Notes under the pieces: model-generated
Database searches by the model: none
Told to the model about the DNA's origin: nothing
Seen by the model: only the letters and a program-made list of their open reading frames with translations
IMG/VR virus record: IMGVR_UViG_3300006874_000039
Coordinates: 1 to 38,338 of that record
Length of the DNA: 38,338 nucleotides
Origin: a virus
Strand: one strand, 5' to 3'
Part shown: positions 1,158 through 19,565 of the stretch, piece by piece
How positions within the stretch are numbered: position 1 is the first letter of the stretch
How the letters are laid out: each line of letters begins with the position of its first letter
Translations under genes and position numbers: made by a program

Positions 1158-3281
1158 TTAGATTTCACAAGATCCACCTGCACAGGCAAGCTCTTGCTGT
1201 GGTGTGGTGTTATCTTGCAGTTCGATCAACTCCGTGTAGTCAACCGCAACTGCTCCTTCCTTTATAGAACAGTATCGATCGTATGTCCATAGGTCCTTTA
1301 GCAAATAAGTCACTTCTTTTTGTGAAATGTTGTACTTGTCTGAAAATGCCTGCAACTTCGCATCAAACTCCCTGTTTTTATTAAAGTCAAACAAGGCATC
1401 ATGGCACAATTGCCACAGTTCACCATCATTGTTGATGCCACTCAATAGCTCCCACCCATGAAGGACTGGGTCATTGCCGTAGTGTTTCATCATCTGCGAT
1501 GGCAAGTAGACCGCAGCAAACGGAGCTTGGGCATAGTCTTTATCGCCGGTGGCCGACAGCAGAGACACCCCGCAAAGGTGCTGCCGATTGTCGTAGATAA
1601 AGTCCTCCACAGTATCCCACTCTTCAGGCTCTACGTTGATTGTGTTGCTAACATTATGGGTAATTCCTTTTAGCTGGCAAAGATCCTCATTTGTACCTGG
1701 GACGACCCAGTGCTGTTGGGTGCTAACAACCGCCTTGAGCAAGCCCTCTGCCGATACCTTTCGCTTTGTGATTGCCCCTGATTTTGTTTCAATTGCGAAT
1801 GACACAACATCATCTGTTTGGTTTGCCGACCATACTGATGATTCACAGGAATCGCCATTAAACAACTTATAATGCCGATAAACTGGGTCGAGAGTGTTAG
1901 CCTGCACTCTGCGAATGTATCTTTTATAATGGTGTGGGTGGATCCCGCTAGATGTCCCTAATACACAACTGGCTGTTCCCTCTGGCTTTACACAGGTAGT
2001 CCTCGCAGCTGGTCTAATGCCGATCATATGAGCTATCAACCCATTAGCATACTTAACAACTTCCGCACCGTTCTCTTGTATCTTCTGATCCAGCAAGACT
2101 GAAGGATTCTCTTGCATACCCGTAATGGAAACGCCAAGTAAGCTTTCATATCCGAAGATGTTTTCACTTGCGGCTCCCAAGTATGGGAACTCGACAAACC
2201 CAGCCTGTAGCGTTCCGATGACCGCCGCCGAGAAAGCCGCCGAGTAAAAGTCGAATTCATCCTTAACCTTTGATCCATTGACTGTCGACAGGTTGCACCC
2301 CTGCCATCCCGTCTCGCCTGTGAGAGGACATTTTGGATACATGCCAATTTCAACGCATGGGTTTACGATCATGTCCAAATCATCCATCCAGACAAACCCA
2401 GGTTCGCCAAACTCCTTGACTGACCTCATTATCTCAGCGAACTGTTCTCGCGTCGTTTCATTTCTAAGTAGTGCGACGGAATTGTTGCTGCGTCCACGTT
2501 GCGGGTTTTCGACGAACCAGTTGCCTGTCTTTGCTTTAAGCATCTCAATATCATGCGGGGAGAAAACACAGATCGTCGCAGACCTGCGAACGCCACCACT
2601 AATAACTGCGTCAGCAAGGTGGCATACAATATCATAACAATCAATTGGGTGTAGTTTCTCATTCTTTACTGCGTTCTCCAGTACGAATTCAACTTTTTGT
2701 AATGCTTTCACTAATGGCTCTGGACCTGGGGCCTTCCCACCTGCCGACAATGGCGAACCTTTAGGTCGGATATCTGAGAAGTCGAACTCTGGCTTTTGGT
2801 TGTAGCCGAAGTAACTCTTGATTAAAAGGTCAGCAGCTGTTGACCATCCTTCGATGCTGTCAACAACCTTCATTGGTAATATCTTATCTGACGGGGTAAG
2901 CTTAGGAAGCTTTCTGACATGCTGCTCTTGAACGCTGTATCCGGTTCCACAGCCGCAAAGCAAAAGATAAAAGCATTCGCGAAAGAATTCAACACGGTCG
3001 CAATGTGAAGCCACACAGTTGAACATGCGAGCGTTATGCTTAAAGATAGGATCGCCAGCGAATTGCATTGAACGCATCGACGGCAGAACCTTCTTTGACA
3101 AAACATCGTCATATGCCCTGACAATAAAAGGTATAGACTCTGGGTAGTTTTTATATTTCTCCAGCATCATTGCTCGTGAACGCATGACACACTCTTCCCA
3201 AGTCTCGCGTCGTTGTTCATCAGGAAGGTATTTAGCGTATTTACTTTGGAAAGTGAAGTCGCTTAGGTTTTTGAGAGTCAT
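1158..3281 (-). CDS. nrdJ: Class II (adenosylcobalamin-dependent) ribonucleoside-triphosphate reductase
   Basis: Reduces ribonucleoside triphosphates to deoxyribonucleotides using a cobalamin-generated thiyl radical, supplying dNTPs for phage replication. The 707-aa length is close to the monomeric Lactobacillus leichmannii type (about 740). Visible landmarks are FNCVASHC (87-94) with one redox Cys, GGVRRSATI (229-237), NPQRGRSNNS (259-268), the active-site NPCVEI (307-312) carrying the radical Cys309 and Glu311, QGCNLS (327-332) with the partner redox Cys, and a C-terminal pair Cys700/Cys705 in CAGGSC for re-reduction by thioredoxin. No intein is seen. AGGA lies 7 bases before the start. Dependence on B12 implies a host that makes or imports cobalamin. 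The next gene starts within the stop codon. Confidence 0.95.
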   Translation of the reverse strand: MTLKNLSDFTFQSKYAKYLPDEQRRETWEECVMRSRAMMLEKYKNYPESIPFIVRAYDDVLSKKVLPSMRSMQFAGDPIFKHNARMFNCVASHCDRVEFFRECFYLLLCGCGTGYSVQEQHVRKLPKLTPSDKILPMKVVDSIEGWSTAADLLIKSYFGYNQKPEFDFSDIRPKGSPLSAGGKAPGPEPLVKALQKVEFVLENAVKNEKLHPIDCYDIVCHLADAVISGGVRRSATICVFSPHDIEMLKAKTGNWFVENPQRGRSNNSVALLRNETTREQFAEIMRSVKEFGEPGFVWMDDLDMIVNPCVEIGMYPKCPLTGETGWQGCNLSTVNGSKVKDEFDFYSAAFSAAVIGTLQAGFVEFPYLGAASENIFGYESLLGVSITGMQENPSVLLDQKIQENGAEVVKYANGLIAHMIGIRPAARTTCVKPEGTASCVLGTSSGIHPHHYKRYIRRVQANTLDPVYRHYKLFNGDSCESSVWSANQTDDVVSFAIETKSGAITKRKVSAEGLLKAVVSTQQHWVVPGTNEDLCQLKGITHNVSNTINVEPEEWDTVEDFIYDNRQHLCGVSLLSATGDKDYAQAPFAAVYLPSQMMKHYGNDPVLHGWELLSGINNDGELWQLCHDALFDFNKNREFDAKLQAFSDKYNISQKEVTYLLKDLWTYDRYCSIKEGAVAVDYTELIELQDNTTPQQELACAGGSCEI

Positions 3282-7274: not shown

Positions 7275-7769
7275 TTAGAAACTTGAAAAAGGATCGGAAT
7301 TTGAAACCTTACTCATCGTTGTCACTGGCTGCTGACTCGATGATTCACGCTTTTGGAATTCTTTCGGTCCTGGGTCGGAAACATTCTTGAAGATACGCCG
7401 AAGATTCAAATACCCCTTGCGTTCTTCAAGTCTTGCCCCAAAGGTCGAGTCAAGCAGATCATCAATATCATTGCATTTCTTTTCGTTCACCAATGCAATC
7501 TGCTTGATGTATTTAGCATTGGCTTTATTAATCCAATCAAGAGGAGCCCCTTTGATTGTAAGGTTGAACCAATGCCGAACCCCGTTATATTCTCCCTCAT
7601 CGGTGACTTCGCCTACCAGAACAACTTCGGATCGATCATCACCCTGATTAAACTTTGCATCAACAACCTTGAAGTTGTATTCACCCTGAACTAGCTTTTT
7701 AAAGCTGGTCTTCGGAGCAAAAACTTCTTCGCCTTCCAAAGCTTCATCGAGTTCGTTAAAAAGACTCAT
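7275..7769 (-). CDS. DUF669-type single-strand DNA-binding-like protein
   Basis: The 164-aa product resembles DUF669 phage proteins, which occur beside Sak4/Erf-type recombinases and are thought to bind single-stranded DNA. The core is strand-rich (YNFKVVDAKF, EVVLVGEVTD, HWFNLTIKG, residues about 30-73), as expected for an OB-like fold. The C-terminus ends SDPFSSF after a Ser/Gln-rich linker, resembling the partner-binding tip of bacterial SSB (acidic followed by Pro-Phe). Its start overlaps the end of the ATPase gene by one base, linking it to the recombinase. Role as the phage SSB is inferred from family and neighbours. Confidence 0.75.
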   Translation of the reverse strand: MSLFNELDEALEGEEVFAPKTSFKKLVQGEYNFKVVDAKFNQGDDRSEVVLVGEVTDEGEYNGVRHWFNLTIKGAPLDWINKANAKYIKQIALVNEKKCNDIDDLLDSTFGARLEERKGYLNLRRIFKNVSDPGPKEFQKRESSSQQPVTTMSKVSNSDPFSSF

Positions 7770-8506
7770 TATTCTACCCCTTTGTTAATTGCGTCTTGGA
7801 TTACATCCCAGTTCATTGGGATAACATCTTCCATTTCTAGGCGGCGTTTTGCTGTAACGGATGGTTTGCCCGTTGTCCGAAGTAGGACGCCGTTTCCACC
7901 TCGGACCTTAACTTCCTTTTTTCCGAACGCTCCCTTCTCCTCTGAGAATCTTAGGTCTTCAAAACAATAAAACACTTCATCGCAAACCTCAACCAAAGCT
8001 TCACTGAAATCCTTGTTAACAAGCTTTGGGTAATGTTTGTCGTATTCGGGATGTTCAGGATCTCGCTGTGGGATCACCATGTCATGTGCAATAACCAAGA
8101 CATTCTTTCCCATCTTATCCCGAACATACTTCAAAGCTGCCAGAAACTTATTCCATTCCTTACGGAGACTTTGCTTTCCGACACCGTACCCAATGTCGTT
8201 GATTGCGTCGACACCGTGCTGTTCACAAACCTTGGTTGTTAATAGTGTTTCGACCGAGTCAACAGCATCGATAACAAGCCAATCAAAAGACCAATTACCA
8301 GAAACCACATTTTGCCAAGCCTCCGAATGGTCATCATAGGTTGCAAGGTGCGGAGTCCGAGTTGGACCGATTTCGTCAACGCCGTCTTCATAGTTTAGAA
8401 AAAGATGCCCAGGTGCTGCTGCACCAAGAGTTGACTTCCCTTTACCGTGGGCACCGTACACGACCATCATTCGTGGCCGATTCTTCTTTCCACTAGTCAA
8501 TTCCAT
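7769..8506 (-). CDS. Sak4-like RecA-fold recombination ATPase
   Basis: A 245-aa AAA/RecA-core ATPase. Walker A GAHGKGKST lies at 18-26 and Walker B WLVIDAVDS at 76-84. Later strand NVLVIAHD fits the sensor region of Sak4-type phage annealing/recombination proteins, which are short RecA-like NTPases lacking extra domains. It likely promotes strand annealing or exchange together with the RecE-like nuclease upstream and the SSB-like protein downstream. The start at 8506 (MELTSG) is chosen because GAGGGG lies 4-5 bases upstream and it avoids overlap; a start at 8560 would overlap the nuclease gene by 46 bases. An alternative role is a RadA-like helicase loader. Confidence 0.82.
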   Translation of the reverse strand: MELTSGKKNRPRMMVVYGAHGKGKSTLGAAAPGHLFLNYEDGVDEIGPTRTPHLATYDDHSEAWQNVVSGNWSFDWLVIDAVDSVETLLTTKVCEQHGVDAINDIGYGVGKQSLRKEWNKFLAALKYVRDKMGKNVLVIAHDMVIPQRDPEHPEYDKHYPKLVNKDFSEALVEVCDEVFYCFEDLRFSEEKGAFGKKEVKVRGGNGVLLRTTGKPSVTAKRRLEMEDVIPMNWDVIQDAINKGVE

Positions 8507-8514
8507 AATACCCC

Positions 8515-9318
8515 TCACATAAACAAACCGCCAATGCTGTAATCCCCTAGTTCTCGACATTTTCTGGCCGCTGAAATCGCTCTATCGAACGAGCCCACCA
8601 TCCCAGGTGTTTCAAACTCTTCGCTTTCAATTAGCTTGGTATGATATGGATCTTCTTTTTGCACAAAGCCAAACACAAACCTGAAATCTGAAGGCTTGTG
8701 GCCAAGTGCGGAAGCCAGCAGACGTTTATAAGCCACCGACTGCCAACCATACTTAAACCGCATCCCAGACTCGAAGGCCGTTGTAATGTCACCTGTGGTC
8801 TTCAGATCGAAGATCAACTTGTCGCCATCCCAGGCGTCCATCTTCCCCTGGAATTTGACTCCTTCGAGAGTTCCTCGGATAGCCCACTCAACACGATTAC
8901 AGGCCCTAATCAAGTCACCCATCTCTGGGTCGGCCCTACAAGCTTGAGCTATATTTAGAGTTGTTTTGTATTCTTCCTCATTAATTGTTCTCCAGATGTT
9001 GTATTCGTTTTCTCTACAGAATTTCTCCCAAGATTTTGTCTCTCTCCCAAATGACTTCCCAGTCTTGGGGTTAATATGATCGGCAACGCTGAAGTTGTCG
9101 TTAAATGCATCATTACCCTCCAAGGTGAGACAGTGAATTGCTTGACCCATAATTAAGTGCGTTTTAGGGACTTCAAAATCACTGCGATTTGCTAAGTATG
9201 CTTCAAACGTCGTCGCGTCGTCGTAAAACCTTTTTAACAGGCTCACCGACATCATTTCGCCGTAAGAACCGTAATACTCCCTGTCGCTTATATTCTCAAC
9301 CTTCGCTTGTGTCTCCAC
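8515..9318 (-). CDS. RecE-like PD-(D/E)XK exonuclease
   Basis: A 267-aa protein resembling the PDDEXK-type exodeoxyribonuclease VIII C-terminal domain. Motif order is GQAIH (58-62, conserved His), GKMDAWDG (158-165) with Asp161, IFDLKTT (169-175) with Asp171 and Lys173, and QSVAYKR (193-199), the QxxxY helix of RecB-family nucleases. It would resect double-stranded ends to give single strands for the Sak4-like ATPase. The start is GTG at 9318 with GGAGG 5 bases upstream, overlapping the previous gene by 23 bases. Nuclease-recombinase-SSB adjacency is a classical phage recombination module. Confidence 0.85.
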   Translation of the reverse strand: METQAKVENISDREYYGSYGEMMSVSLLKRFYDDATTFEAYLANRSDFEVPKTHLIMGQAIHCLTLEGNDAFNDNFSVADHINPKTGKSFGRETKSWEKFCRENEYNIWRTINEEEYKTTLNIAQACRADPEMGDLIRACNRVEWAIRGTLEGVKFQGKMDAWDGDKLIFDLKTTGDITTAFESGMRFKYGWQSVAYKRLLASALGHKPSDFRFVFGFVQKEDPYHTKLIESEEFETPGMVGSFDRAISAARKCRELGDYSIGGLFM

Positions 9319-9918: not shown

Positions 9919-10248
9919 TTAATCTCCCGAATCTACTCTAAAGCTGACTTTAGCTGTCATGGAATACCTAACCTTAACACCTCGCCCTTCGGAGATGGTG
10001 TTAAACTTATGTCCGGCATCAAGCATCGCTTTAAATCTATCAAATTCCCTATCTGCCCAACCATTCATATATCCAAGATACTCATGATCTGGGTCGGCCA
10101 TCAAATCCATTAGTTCATTTTCCATTTTCCAAATCCTCCGTATTCGTCTGTTTTCAGGCAGGCATTCTTTAGCCATTCTTTCTTGTTTCCTGCTTCTATT
10201 TAAAAATTGTTCATAACTTTCGCCTGTATCTTTTAATTCAAATGGCAT
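9919..10248 (-). CDS. Hypothetical charged protein (109 aa)
   Basis: The product is very rich in charged residues: a basic helix in the first half (NRSRKQERMAKECL, NRRIRRIWKM), then acidic helix-forming stretches and a short strand-rich end (VKVRYSMTAKVSFRVDSGD). A GGAGGT ribosome site lies immediately upstream (spacing about 4), formed partly by the stop region of the acidic 36-aa gene. No domain is recognised. It lies early in the leftward operon, where phages often keep regulators or host-interaction proteins; that is context only. Confidence 0.6.
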   Translation of the reverse strand: MPFELKDTGESYEQFLNRSRKQERMAKECLPENRRIRRIWKMENELMDLMADPDHEYLGYMNGWADREFDRFKAMLDAGHKFNTISEGRGVKVRYSMTAKVSFRVDSGD

Positions 10249-10253
10249 ACCTC

Positions 10254-10364
10254 CTACTCCCAGTTATCGATATCTTCATATTCAGAAATGTACTCATACC
10301 AATCATCAAACCATTGACAAAAATCATCACAGCACTCTTCGTAATAAAATTCCATTTCTATCAT
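10254..10364 (-). CDS. Tiny, extremely acidic aromatic protein (36 aa)
   Basis: A 37-codon frame exactly fills the gap between the HTH-like gene (one base after its stop) and the 109-aa gene (start 5 bases past this stop). The product has 14 Asp/Glu and no Lys or Arg, with 11 Trp/Tyr/Phe and three Cys. An alternative start three codons later (10355) has AGGA about 8 bases upstream and may be the real one, giving 33 aa. Such a composition, about -14 net charge with aromatics spread along it, resembles small DNA-mimic or enzyme-inhibitor proteins of phages, but this is inference. Support is the gap-filling fit and strong composition bias. Confidence 0.5.
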   Translation of the reverse strand: MIEMEFYYEECCDDFCQWFDDWYEYISEYEDIDNWE

Positions 10365-10365
10365 C

Positions 10366-11217
10366 CTAAAAGTACAAGTGAAGGTGTTCAACACCCAGAT
10401 TCATTTCGTAACCACACCCAGTGTTCGGTATCTCGTCACCATGCGGTGGCACTGGGGTCGTGAAGTCAGGTTTTTCTCTATCAGAATAATAGGTTCCTCG
10501 GTGGTCAACCCAGTCGTTTGTGTTGTGGCCTCCAGATTGGGCTATGCGTTCCTGTTGCTTCCTTGCAGAAGGAAAACTATATTGATGACCCATAAACCAC
10601 ATAATAGAGCCTAATCTTATATTGACAGGTGCGAGAGTATGTTCCATCCGCCTGCAATGTCTCTCAATGCTTCTCCGTCTATATTTGACTTGGTCACGAG
10701 ATAATCCGGTAAGGTTACTTATTGGAATCTCCTGCTCACCCGCCAGCAAGCACTCAAAGATTGTCCTGTAATCTTCGCCAAATAAATCTCCGATGTCAAT
10801 AGCGGCGATGTGGGCATCCGATCCCGGACCAATATCAACAGAAACCACCGACGACATGTTGTTAGCTGTTATCTCCTCGCCCTGCAAATCATCGTCATTT
10901 GATTTTCCCCAAATCTCCTCCATGTTAGGCAATGTCGACTCCCAAGTGCCATCATCATCCTTCTCAATCCTGCCTTGGTTGCTGAGAACTTCAACCAGTG
11001 TTTTTGTAAATGGACGAAACTTTTTCTTGATGACAAACTCAATGTAAACATCATTTAGTGCGTCGTCAACTCCATAGGAGGCGTCTGCACATTTTGAATC
11101 CAGAATCTTCTGGAATCTCTGAATTAACCTCCTTGCAGTAATCTTGCATTTTTTTCCACATGCCGCCTCAGAATCCCTTATCAGTGTTTTGGCATAAGAG
11201 ACAGTTTCATTGTTCAT
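10366..11217 (-). CDS. Putative HTH regulator, possibly sigma-like (283 aa)
   Basis: First gene of the leftward operon, with a very strong site GGAAGGAG 7 bases before the start. The N-terminal half is basic and helical (ARRLIQRFQKIL, ALNDVYIEFVIKKKF). A stretch around residues 165-205 (DYRTIFECLLAGEQEIPISNLTGLSRDQVKYRRRSIERHCRRM) has the spacing and residues of a sigma region 4 or similar helix-turn-helix: variable helix, turn at LTGLS, recognition helix rich in Arg. The final 70 residues are polar, rich in His, Tyr, Pro and Gly and probably flexible. It may control phage promoters such as the paired 30-bp motifs beside it. I cannot see a clear region 2, so a full sigma factor is uncertain. 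Confidence 0.55.
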   Translation of the reverse strand: MNNETVSYAKTLIRDSEAACGKKCKITARRLIQRFQKILDSKCADASYGVDDALNDVYIEFVIKKKFRPFTKTLVEVLSNQGRIEKDDDGTWESTLPNMEEIWGKSNDDDLQGEEITANNMSSVVSVDIGPGSDAHIAAIDIGDLFGEDYRTIFECLLAGEQEIPISNLTGLSRDQVKYRRRSIERHCRRMEHTLAPVNIRLGSIMWFMGHQYSFPSARKQQERIAQSGGHNTNDWVDHRGTYYSDREKPDFTTPVPPHGDEIPNTGCGYEMNLGVEHLHLYF

Positions 11218-11230
11218 TTAACTCTCCTTC

Positions 11231-11260
11231 CCTATCTAACTATATACGGGTGATTGTCGC
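11231..11260 (-). promoter_or_regulatory. Left copy of a 30-bp phage promoter-like motif
   Basis: On the minus strand this reads GACAAT, two variable bases, CCCGTATATA, then an AT-rich stretch ending ATAGG. It lies 14 bases upstream of the first leftward gene's start (11217), so a transcript starting near it would have a short leader. A near copy faces the other way at 11454-11483 (23 of 30 positions identical). TATA-type elements resemble a -10, but the -35 is poor and spacing short, so a phage-modified or alternative holoenzyme, or an activator, may be needed. Confidence 0.6.
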
Positions 11261-11272
11261 TATTTGGGCGAC
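11256..11272. promoter_or_regulatory. Inverted repeat overlapping the left promoter motif
   Basis: GTCGC (11256-11260) and GCGAC (11268-11272) form a 5-bp dyad with a 7-base centre. The left arm coincides with the upstream end of the promoter-like motif, which is where an activator or repressor could act. It is absent from the right copy, which may allow different control of the two arms. A short chance hairpin is possible. Confidence 0.35.
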
Positions 11273-11453
11273 GATTTTATTTTTTCTTTCATGATTATCG
11301 ACCAAAGATTCTTGCTTCTACATCAATTGTCCTGAATACAGGGTTTTCACTAGGTTTGATAACTTGCACGCATTATTCCTCCCCCCAGTTGAGGGTCGTT
11401 AATGGCAAATTTCATGCCAATCTTCATTTTTTTAAATTTTAATTACCCAAAAT

Positions 11454-11483
11454 CAGACAATGCCCCGTATATAATATAATAGG
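11454..11483 (+). promoter_or_regulatory. Right copy of the 30-bp phage promoter-like motif
   Basis: Plus-strand sequence GACAAT, two variable bases, CCCGTATATA, then two overlapping TATAAT hexamers (11470-11475, 11475-11480) and ATAGG. It is placed about 240 bases upstream of the first rightward gene and is the obvious start of the late/structural transcript. The match to the divergent left copy includes the non-TATA parts, so it is not only an AT-rich coincidence. The region between the two copies (11273-11453) holds no credible gene; it contains an AT-rich tract and a small dyad TGGCA/TGCCA (11403-11419). Confidence 0.65.
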
Positions 11484-11725
11484 AGGGAGGGAGGAGTGAG
11501 CTTTGCGAGCGACGACCGACCGACTTGAATTGTACATTTATTTCAATCCTCTAGCAAGTGGAATATCTGTGCATGATGATTGACTAAAGCTGCTGTGGCC
11601 ATCCCAGGCTGCGGCAGCTATCTAAACTGGGATGTTCCTAGCGGGTGCAGGGGCGGCGTTTGAGCCCCTGCAATGGTTAGCACTTTAGGGGGAAGGGTTG
11701 GGATACCCAAGAGGAAGGTAATAAA
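11484..11725 (+). promoter_or_regulatory. Structured 5' leader of the structural operon
   Basis: No gene is seen in these 242 bases. The RNA would contain CATCCCAG (11600-11607) pairing with CTGGGATG (11627-11634), enclosing a second hairpin GCTGC/GCAGC (11608-11618). Next comes a 9-bp hairpin TGCAGGGGC/GCCCCTGCA (11646-11672) without a U-run. A purine-rich stretch and the ribosome site AGGAAGG precede the first gene. Possible roles are an antitermination signal, RNA stability element or translational control. The alternative pairing AGCTGC (11588-11593) with GCAGCT (11614-11619) competes with the first stem, which would suit a switch. Role inferred from structure only. Confidence 0.5.
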
Positions 11726-15984: not shown

Positions 15985-17289
15985 ATGACAACTCCTAATG
16001 GTGCAATTGTATTTCACGCCACATCTGGATCAGACACTCAAGCAAGTGGGCTTGGGCCTTCAACGGCAGTATATGGCAGTGGTGCGTCTACTGATGGAAC
16101 GGCGGTTGTCACGGGCATTACCACCACTGGAGTATCTGCTGGGGATTTGCTCTGGGTGCAGACTGCAAGCGGTCGGCAGTTTTCAATTATTGCCAGTGTT
16201 GATAGCAGCACGCAGGTGACTTGTGACGATACGTTTGCTCTAGGTGCTAGTCAGACTTGGGCGATTGGTGGGAAGAGAGCGACCCTAGATAACTCGGACA
16301 GTCGACTTTTGTTTACCGCTGATGCCAAGCCGGGCTGGACGATTGAAACAGAGACAGACCAGAGCTTAACTAGTGCAATTGCTTGGACCGCTGACGGTGA
16401 CAGTACAGGCTGCATAACACTTAAAGGCAGTGATGCAACGACATTAAAAAAGATAAACCAGACAGCAAATGCAAACGGAATTACACTGACAATTGCCAAT
16501 TACGTTGCAATTAAAGATTTGCACATTGTCAGGTCGTCCGGAAGTAACGGTTATACGGCTATCGCGGCTAGAGGCATCCCGATGGTGTTTGAAAACGTCA
16601 AGATAGACAACTCCGGCGGTAATAGTTGGAACCACGGGATTACTCGCAACGGCGGGAATCCTGTGATAACGATGCTGAGGGTAGTTGTCACTAACTGCGT
16701 TTTGGATGGGATCAGCGATGCAGGCGGCGGGGTTGGTGGCGTTGTGTCTGATAGCATTTTCGCAAATAACGGAGGTGACGGTGTAGCGGCAGGCATTTAT
16801 GCACTGACTCTAAGTCGCTGCCTGATTTACGGCAACGGGGCCTATGGAGTTGTATCCAGTCAATATCAGATTAATGTTTCAAATTGCGTCATTCACGGCA
16901 ATACGTCAGATGGTATTAACCTTTCAGGAGTAGCTAATTCTGTGGTGGGGTGCGTTCTGTCTGGTAATGGAGGTTACGGTATTAACGTGGACAGTTCATG
17001 GGCCTTGGGCAGCGTTGAGGACTTTAATGCCTTCTACAACAACACAACCGGAGAAGTCAACAACATCACGAAGGGACCTAGTGACGTCACGTTAACCGCC
17101 GATCCGTTTACCGATACTGCAACGGATGACTACACAATTAACACAACAGCCGGTGGTGGTTCCACTTTACGTTCTACAGCAATCACCCTCGGCTCTACTG
17201 AGACTCGTCCATTCCGCTGGCTTGACGCTGCTGCCGCAGGTGTTGCCGCAGTCTTCTCTTACATGGCTAACTTCACAAGGCTGGGCTAA
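15985..17289 (+). CDS. Second parallel beta-helix tail protein (434 aa)
   Basis: Residues about 1-120 form a strand-rich cap (AIVFHATSGSD, GDLLWVQTASG), and about 145-360 show beta-helix turns with repeated N/C corners (VAIKDLHIVRS, FENVKIDNS, VTNCVLDGIS, VSDSIFANNGGDGV, LSRCLIYGNGAYGV, VSNCVIHGNTSDGINL, VVGCVLSGNGGYGINV). The repeating GNxxxGI/V is typical of pectate-lyase-like sheets. The C-terminal 60 residues (ADPFTDTATDDYTIN and RPFRWLDAAAAG) end in NFTRLG. It follows the first beta-helix gene by 3 bases. Probable adhesin or depolymerase; no active-site residues assigned. Its stop overlaps the next start as TAATG. Confidence 0.8.
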   Translation: MTTPNGAIVFHATSGSDTQASGLGPSTAVYGSGASTDGTAVVTGITTTGVSAGDLLWVQTASGRQFSIIASVDSSTQVTCDDTFALGASQTWAIGGKRATLDNSDSRLLFTADAKPGWTIETETDQSLTSAIAWTADGDSTGCITLKGSDATTLKKINQTANANGITLTIANYVAIKDLHIVRSSGSNGYTAIAARGIPMVFENVKIDNSGGNSWNHGITRNGGNPVITMLRVVVTNCVLDGISDAGGGVGGVVSDSIFANNGGDGVAAGIYALTLSRCLIYGNGAYGVVSSQYQINVSNCVIHGNTSDGINLSGVANSVVGCVLSGNGGYGINVDSSWALGSVEDFNAFYNNTTGEVNNITKGPSDVTLTADPFTDTATDDYTINTTAGGGSTLRSTAITLGSTETRPFRWLDAAAAGVAAVFSYMANFTRLG

Positions 17290-19565
17290 TGTCGTTCACC
17301 AATCCATATCCCGCCAGTCGGCTCACGGTCGATGCTACAAACAGCCTGTCGTCCGGGCTCGTGGGCTTCTGGCCCCTGACCGATGGTACGGGTACGACGG
17401 CGAAGGATATTAGTACGGGTGCGAATGATGGGACTGCGAGTGGTACGGTCAATTGGCTTAGTGGCGATATCGGGATGGCTGCTGACTTTGCTAGCGTAAC
17501 TGGCTATTTCGACACTGGTGCTGGAACTAGTACGCTTGGCATCTCGGGTGGGTCCACCGCATCAATCTCTGCGTGGGTTAATTACACAACTGGCGGAAGT
17601 ATTACGCAGAATGTGTTTGGCGACTTAGGTAGCGGTGGTGTGGCTCCAAATTTTGGCATGTATATTGGGCCTTGGCCTTCTTTCGTAGATGTTTGGCGTA
17701 ACGAAGCTAATGCAAGATTTACATCTGTAACATTTAGTGGATGGATGCACTTCGTTGCTGTATATGACACATCAAACATATACCTATACATCAACGGATC
17801 ACTTCATGGCACGATTGCAAGTTCAGGTAGTATTAACGCTTCTACCGGGAACTGCATGATTGGCAACCAACCTGCCAATAACAGGAACCTTGAAGGGCAA
17901 GAGCAAAACGTCCGCATCTACAACCGTGCCTTATCCGCCACAGAAGTAGCCACCCTCTATAACCGCCCGTGGGAAGGCACCAACTACGGCACGCTTTGGC
18001 CTTACAGTCCTCCAGCCCCGGCAGATGCTACGCTCAGTACTGATACTGCGGCGACGAGTTTGAACGTCGATTTAGAAGGATGGTGGTTATGCACTGACAA
18101 TACTGGCACGACGCTGGTTGATATATCAGGCAATGGGCGAGATGCGACGTTGACTGGTACTAATAGCTGGGTGGCTGATTCTGTAGGGACTGTTAATAGG
18201 TTTGATAACAGTTCAGGCGGGGGGAGTAGTGCAAGTACAACAGACTATCAAATAAGTCTATCAACCTACACCATTGCACTCTGGGTTAATCATGAGGAAG
18301 CTGGGCTTGCATCTGGGAATAAATACGGCGGTGGACTTTCTTTAACTAATGGTAATTCAGCGTCATTGCAGTCAGATGTTGAGTTCTATTTCAATCCAAG
18401 TAGCACTAGTGGTGGTCAATGGCCACAGGTGGTTCATAACAGGTCAAATGGAGGCACGATTGGTTTATGGAGTAGGGCAGAGTCGGCTAAGACATCAGAG
18501 AATGGCGTCTGGAGATTTTATGTTTTAACCTACGACGGCACAAATGCGAGGTTTTACAAAGACGCAGTTTTGGCGGGAACGTCATCATCCTTGGCGGCAC
18601 CGATATCTACAACCGGCAAGCACTTAAATATAGCCACTAATCGCGACCCTGATGGCATCACCTGCTCAATGCAGAACATTAGGCTCTATTCGAGGGCCTT
18701 GTCAGCAGATGAAATCACCATCCTCTACGAACGACCGTGGGAGGGTATCGAATATGGCGATGCTTTCCACTACGATCCGCCCACACCTGCCAATCTCACT
18801 CCGCTCACATCAGATTCCATAAACAATTCACAAATTGGCTGGTGGCCCCTCACCGAAACGGATGATTACGCGAGCGGGGCGGCTGATATTAGTGGGAATG
18901 GGAATAACGGTACTCAGTCTGGCGGCGTGTTGAGCGAGGTGAGTCGGCTGGGTGGTGTTGCTAGTTTTGATGGCGTAAATGACATCATTGATGCAAGTGC
19001 TTACACGATAGCGTCTACATCATCTATGACTATGGCTGGATGGATCAGATACACCTCAACCGTAGGTTCTGTTTGCGTTTTGAATATCTGCAACGCTGGT
19101 GGTGGCACTACTGCTCAATACACCAGAAATATAGCCATCAACTCAAGCGGAAATGCGTCGTGTAATGTCCAGAGTGGAACAGCTATCGCACAGGCGGTTG
19201 GCTCAACCGTGTTTGATATTGGAGAGTGGTACTTCGTAGTAGGTACGTTTGACAAGGTGGGTACTAGCTATGATGTCGAGATATTCGTCAACGGAGTGAG
19301 CGAGGCAACTGCTTCTGGCACTGGTTCTGAACTAACACCGTATACGAACACATGTATCGGAGGTGCTAGAAGATATAATAATGCGATTACGGCTGTAGAA
19401 CCTTGCGAGATTCATAATGTCAGACTTTGGGATAGAGCCTTAACCGCAGATGAAGTATGGGATATCTACGCGAATCCGTGGCTAGGCAGTGCATATACGG
19501 CAACCCCATCCGCCGTTTTATACAATTACATATTACGTTCTAAACGATTTAGGAGGCTAAGTTAA
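17289..19565 (+). CDS. Triple LamG/concanavalin A-like adhesin (758 aa)
   Basis: Three LamG-type (laminin G-3/ConA-like) domains occupy about residues 15-235, 250-490 and 505-745. Each opens with a Trp-rich strand (GFWPLTD, GWWLCTD, GWWPLTE), continues with DISGNGxxGT-like turns (domains 2 and 3), and closes with a conserved segment RxYxRALSAxE, then a PWEG or PWLG exit. Such jelly-roll domains bind carbohydrate or protein ligands, so the protein is likely a host-surface or mucus-binding tail fibre. The domains are diverged, implying old internal duplication. It ends RFRRLS, similar to the two beta-helix proteins. It is the longest protein of the phage. Confidence 0.85.
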   Translation: MSFTNPYPASRLTVDATNSLSSGLVGFWPLTDGTGTTAKDISTGANDGTASGTVNWLSGDIGMAADFASVTGYFDTGAGTSTLGISGGSTASISAWVNYTTGGSITQNVFGDLGSGGVAPNFGMYIGPWPSFVDVWRNEANARFTSVTFSGWMHFVAVYDTSNIYLYINGSLHGTIASSGSINASTGNCMIGNQPANNRNLEGQEQNVRIYNRALSATEVATLYNRPWEGTNYGTLWPYSPPAPADATLSTDTAATSLNVDLEGWWLCTDNTGTTLVDISGNGRDATLTGTNSWVADSVGTVNRFDNSSGGGSSASTTDYQISLSTYTIALWVNHEEAGLASGNKYGGGLSLTNGNSASLQSDVEFYFNPSSTSGGQWPQVVHNRSNGGTIGLWSRAESAKTSENGVWRFYVLTYDGTNARFYKDAVLAGTSSSLAAPISTTGKHLNIATNRDPDGITCSMQNIRLYSRALSADEITILYERPWEGIEYGDAFHYDPPTPANLTPLTSDSINNSQIGWWPLTETDDYASGAADISGNGNNGTQSGGVLSEVSRLGGVASFDGVNDIIDASAYTIASTSSMTMAGWIRYTSTVGSVCVLNICNAGGGTTAQYTRNIAINSSGNASCNVQSGTAIAQAVGSTVFDIGEWYFVVGTFDKVGTSYDVEIFVNGVSEATASGTGSELTPYTNTCIGGARRYNNAITAVEPCEIHNVRLWDRALTADEVWDIYANPWLGSAYTATPSAVLYNYILRSKRFRRLS

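Follow-up and report, generated by a model that had tools for sequence, protein, structure and literature searches.

A lysine- and arginine-free acidic peptide probably encoded by a short gene in the leftward operon of an uncultured phage

The minus-strand frame at positions 10254-10364 of the window (the whole 38,338-base IMG/VR virus record that was analysed) encodes an acidic peptide of 36 aa, MIEMEFYYEECCDDFCQWFDDWYEYISEYEDIDNWE, which is probably the product of a real gene and is best read as a lineage-specific, translationally coupled early gene of an uncultured phage. The peptide exhibits 14 Asp/Glu among its 36 residues (39%), 11 Phe, Trp or Tyr, three cysteines and no Lys or Arg, with a computed charge of -14.9 at pH 7.5 and a pI of 4.05, and both the composition and the net charge of about -14 given in the original prediction, which had been made from the sequence alone, were thereby confirmed. 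The frame was also rightly described there as filling the gap between two leftward genes and as the second gene of the left operon: it occupies a 117-nt gap between a 283-aa and a 109-aa gene, its start and stop fit this gap almost exactly, and, counted from the divergent region at 11218-11725, it comes second among the leftward genes. The ATG at 10355-10353 (Met4) is preceded by AGGA at 8 nt, whereas the outer ATG lacks any such Shine-Dalgarno site, and Met4 is therefore the likelier start, giving a probable gene of 33 aa (MEFYYEECCDDFCQWFDDWYEYISEYEDIDNWE) at 10254-10355 on the minus strand. The AGGA core (10364-10367, minus strand) overlaps the TAG stop codon (10366-10368) of the 283-aa gene, and the 109-aa gene starts 5 nt past the stop codon of the peptide.

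The leftward operon is ordered as an HTH-like gene, the peptide, three small genes, an exonuclease and Sak4, and further holds genes for an SSB-like protein, a DUF3987 primase-like protein and a class II ribonucleotide reductase. Its first gene (10366-11217, minus strand) encodes a probable HTH protein of 283 aa, itself acidic (pI 5.4), which appears weakly ECF-sigma-like: its homologue in a syntenic relative gave HTH and Sigma70_r4_2 scores, all below cut-off, and a low-confidence structural model gave weak Foldseek matches to ECF sigma factors and sigma region 4. No family was assigned to this protein, which is possibly a divergent phage sigma-like factor. The third gene (9919-10248, minus strand) encodes the 109-aa protein, whose function is unassigned. 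The PDDEXK exonuclease (DUF3799 or exonuclease VIII-like; 8515-9318, minus strand) and the Sak4-like ssDNA-annealing ATPase (7769-8560, minus strand) belong to the same operon. The class II (B12-dependent) ribonucleotide reductase at 1158-3281 on the minus strand shows about 42% identity to proteins of Pseudaeromonas and Rhizobium phages.

The open frame by itself is weak evidence for a gene, because a frame of at least 33 aa also arose in 5.4% of dinucleotide shuffles of the gap. The composition is a clearer outlier and makes a chance origin unlikely: an equally acidic frame free of Lys and Arg was obtained in 0 of 20,000 dinucleotide shuffles of the gap; the peptide is the most acidic among the 232 window ORFs of 30-60 aa; no Lys/Arg-free ORF with at least 10 acidic residues was detected in 357 kb from other loci, which contain 2,014 ORFs; and in 432 kb of phage DNA, a set which takes in T7 and parts of T4, none of the 3,718 ORFs 25-70 aa long exceeded a net acidic fraction of 0.22, vs 0.39 in the peptide. 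Of about 5,700 small ORFs elsewhere, none matched this composition; one (in contig L016) was richer in acids than the peptide, yet carried seven Lys/Arg. Stretches of 36 aa within the longer proteins of the window reach a net charge of -12, indicating that the charge of the peptide is extreme and still within protein norms. Under a codon model trained on the long ORFs of the window, the frame scored +8.6 and the other five frames scored negative; the synonymous part of this score was just 0.16, indicating that the coding signal lies in amino-acid composition and not in synonymous choice. A 73-aa ORF on the plus strand at the same place was rejected as an antisense shadow, as the antisense coding scores were negative. 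The GC content of the peptide region is 32%, compared with 46% for the window, placing it among the lowest 0.6% of equal-length window stretches, so that a recent acquisition of the region is possible. The claim of a hidden small protein is thus supported by the positive score of this frame alone, the unmatched composition, the helical amphipathicity, the tight packing and the Shine-Dalgarno site.

Conservation of the frame in relatives, which had been named as a check, is partly contradicted: the gene is absent from contig 3300010297_000211 (L006), the sole informative relative, and the twin contig 3300007345_000180 has the same sequence as the window across the peptide region and thus carries no information on selection. 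L006 is a true syntenic relative, fairly distant, with identities to the window of 66% for Sak4, 51% for the exonuclease, 39% for the 109-aa protein and 31% for the 283-aa protein; its upstream gene has a TGA that overlaps the start of the next gene, leaving no gap, and no small Lys/Arg-free ORF of like acidity was seen in its 12.4 kb. The peptide gene is therefore not a core gene, and from this comparison it would be either lineage-specific or else lost in L006. The L006 homologue of the 283-aa protein also lacks a C-terminal stretch of roughly 45 residues, which lies at 10366-10500 on the minus strand of the window, and this tail and the acidic ORF may form a single inserted or deleted segment. 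Queries with the neighbouring genes, alone and as alignments, returned only window-like contigs (the twin and L009, the latter ending short of the gap) and the L006 group (L006, L007 and L013, with the junction spanned by L006 only), with no matches among genome contigs. Searches of viral, phage, genome, Pfam, PHROG and PDB collections yielded no homologue of the peptide; tblastn against phages was negative, under a low-complexity filter that may hide weak matches; and the DNA patterns for WF[DE][DE]WY[DE]Y and CC[DE][DE]FCxW, searched in viral and genome contigs, found their real match in the twin contig only. Other pattern matches in these contigs had no acidic context and were chance-like, and a PDB sequence match was discounted because its target was a designed helix bundle of repetitive sequence, with 5.7 bits for the best single stretch. 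A one-base indel between the window and the near-identical twin was also observed at about 11500, apparently in the divergent intergenic region.

The hydrophobic moment of the peptide at 102.9 degrees stands out against shuffles of the same residues (p about 0.001), and heptad a/d positions are hydrophobic in 10 of 11 cases (shuffle p 0.007), a coiled-coil pattern that is a general property and no proof of kinship with T7 gp5.9. The single-sequence AlphaFold2 model displays, at moderate confidence, one helix over residues 3-29 with a mean pLDDT of 67, and of 76-77 across residues 11-30. These predictions support an amphipathic helix with an acidic face, for which pairing may be envisaged; a lone 33-mer at a charge of about -14 may not fold or pair unaided. 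Foldseek comparison of the helix with viral structures gave no matches.

By analogy with known phage inhibitors, the favoured reading of the peptide, a possible and tentative one, is that of an acidic helix acting as a decoy for a protein that binds nucleic acids. The 33-36 residues would fold into one acid-coated amphipathic alpha-helix, which would probably pair via its aromatic stripe, and the paired helix would then mimic DNA or RNA, its negative charge engaging the basic surface of the protein that it decoys. The leading candidate target is a recombination nuclease of the host, for example RecBCD or AddAB, because the exonuclease and Sak4 recombination genes share the operon of the peptide. 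Phages that carry recombination genes of their own frequently inhibit the RecBCD of the host, as with lambda Gam, T7 gp5.9 and P22 Abc. The strong net negative charge typical of DNA-mimic inhibitors is present; counting against the decoy, three genes stand between the peptide and the exonuclease. We infer the expression, pairing, decoy action and target of the peptide alike, and the narrowest form of the reading, in which about 33 residues make a natural DNA mimic by pairing as acidic helices along an aromatic stripe and so inhibit a nuclease or polymerase of the host, is considered quite unlikely.

The closest likeness of the peptide is T7 gp5.9, the RecBCD inhibitor of 52 aa, to which it has no detectable sequence relation. 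T7 gp5.9 is an acidic parallel coiled coil which blocks RecBCD through DNA mimicry (PMC9836394), and like it the peptide is small, acidic, predicted to be helical and encoded in a DNA-metabolism region near an exonuclease gene. In the T7 annotation the gp5.9 gene directly precedes the gene 6 exonuclease, whereas the peptide gene does not adjoin the exonuclease gene, and gp5.9 has 13 Asp/Glu, 5 Lys/Arg and 3 aromatic residues in its 52 aa, as opposed to 14, 0 and 11 in 36 aa. No gp5.9 homology of the peptide was found in the phage collection (T7 included), PHROGs or PDB sequences, so that the analogy is the best lead on mechanism, yet no evidence of kinship. T7 Ocr (gp0.3), an early, Asp/Glu-dense anti-restriction DNA mimic (PMC2806950), has 116 residues in an elongated curved dimer with 34 Asp/Glu and 6 Lys/Arg per monomer; it is about three times as long as the peptide, with no sequence similarity to it. 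The DNA mimics compared range from 52 to 117 aa against 33-36 aa for the peptide. The earlier claim of DNA mimicry is plausible by analogy only, as neither a homologue, nor a conserved partner, nor a confident structure was found.

Small ORFs without relatives abound in phages. The peptide frame could also be a fortuitous acidic one in lineage-specific, AT-rich gap sequence, with little or no translation and no function. The lack of relatives, the absence of the gene from L006, the low GC content and the missing synonymous-codon signal are all consistent with such a young or neutral ORF, which we nevertheless regard as somewhat doubtful, given a charge and Lys/Arg absence unmatched in shuffles of the same gap, a helical periodicity that exceeds composition, a well-spaced Shine-Dalgarno site and the almost exact match of start and stop to the gap. 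It is unlikely that the peptide instead regulates or partners the HTH/sigma-like 283-aa protein encoded upstream, or else host sigma or RNA polymerase, with tight coupling setting the ratio. The peptide directly adjoins the 283-aa gene, its Shine-Dalgarno site overlaps the upstream stop codon, and that neighbour carries the weak HTH, Sigma70_r4_2 and ECF-sigma-like signals, but none of these signals reaches any cut-off, the neighbour too is acidic, and L006 retains a homologue of it and has no peptide, so that the peptide is not an obligate partner and a regulatory role is weakened. Binding of host RNA polymerase by small phage proteins has precedent (PMC11323111). TraR homologues, T7 gp2 and T4 AsiA are small phage regulators that target RNA polymerase or sigma of the host; they are folded, longer than the peptide (64-90 aa) and without detected similarity to it, and the sole tie of the peptide to transcription regulators is that it adjoins a possible HTH/sigma-like gene.

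Two further readings concern the cysteines and the upstream frame. Three cysteines inside six residues (CCxxxC) and 14 carboxylates would suit a metal- or redox-binding acidic peptide, a chelator with no nucleic-acid mimicry, which is very improbable for a peptide with no His, known motif or family match. The acidic residues might also form a C-terminal tail of the 283-aa protein through +1 slippage on TTT-TAG (TACTTTTAGG), which would make a DNA-binding protein whose acidic tail is optional, as tRNA-Phe can re-pair on TTT and the acidic frame then runs without a stop. This is extremely improbable: no stimulatory Shine-Dalgarno-like element lies upstream, the RNA of the gap shows no unusual structure (z -0.64), the peptide ORF possesses a Shine-Dalgarno site and a start of its own, and the L006 homologue of the 283-aa protein has no such tail. 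An RNA element in the gap was considered separately and found unsupported, the folding being ordinary and Rfam giving no matches in the window.

If the peptide is made and active, one acidic amphipathic helix about 33 residues long would suffice as a phage inhibitor and offer a minimal scaffold to block DNA-binding proteins, and short gaps would deserve a broader search for overlooked phage genes; if it is not made, the case would be a warning against inferring function from charge alone. Elsewhere in the window, the plus-strand gene at 17289-19565 encodes a protein of 758 aa that has three Laminin_G_3 (concanavalin A-like) domains and may be an adhesin of the virion.
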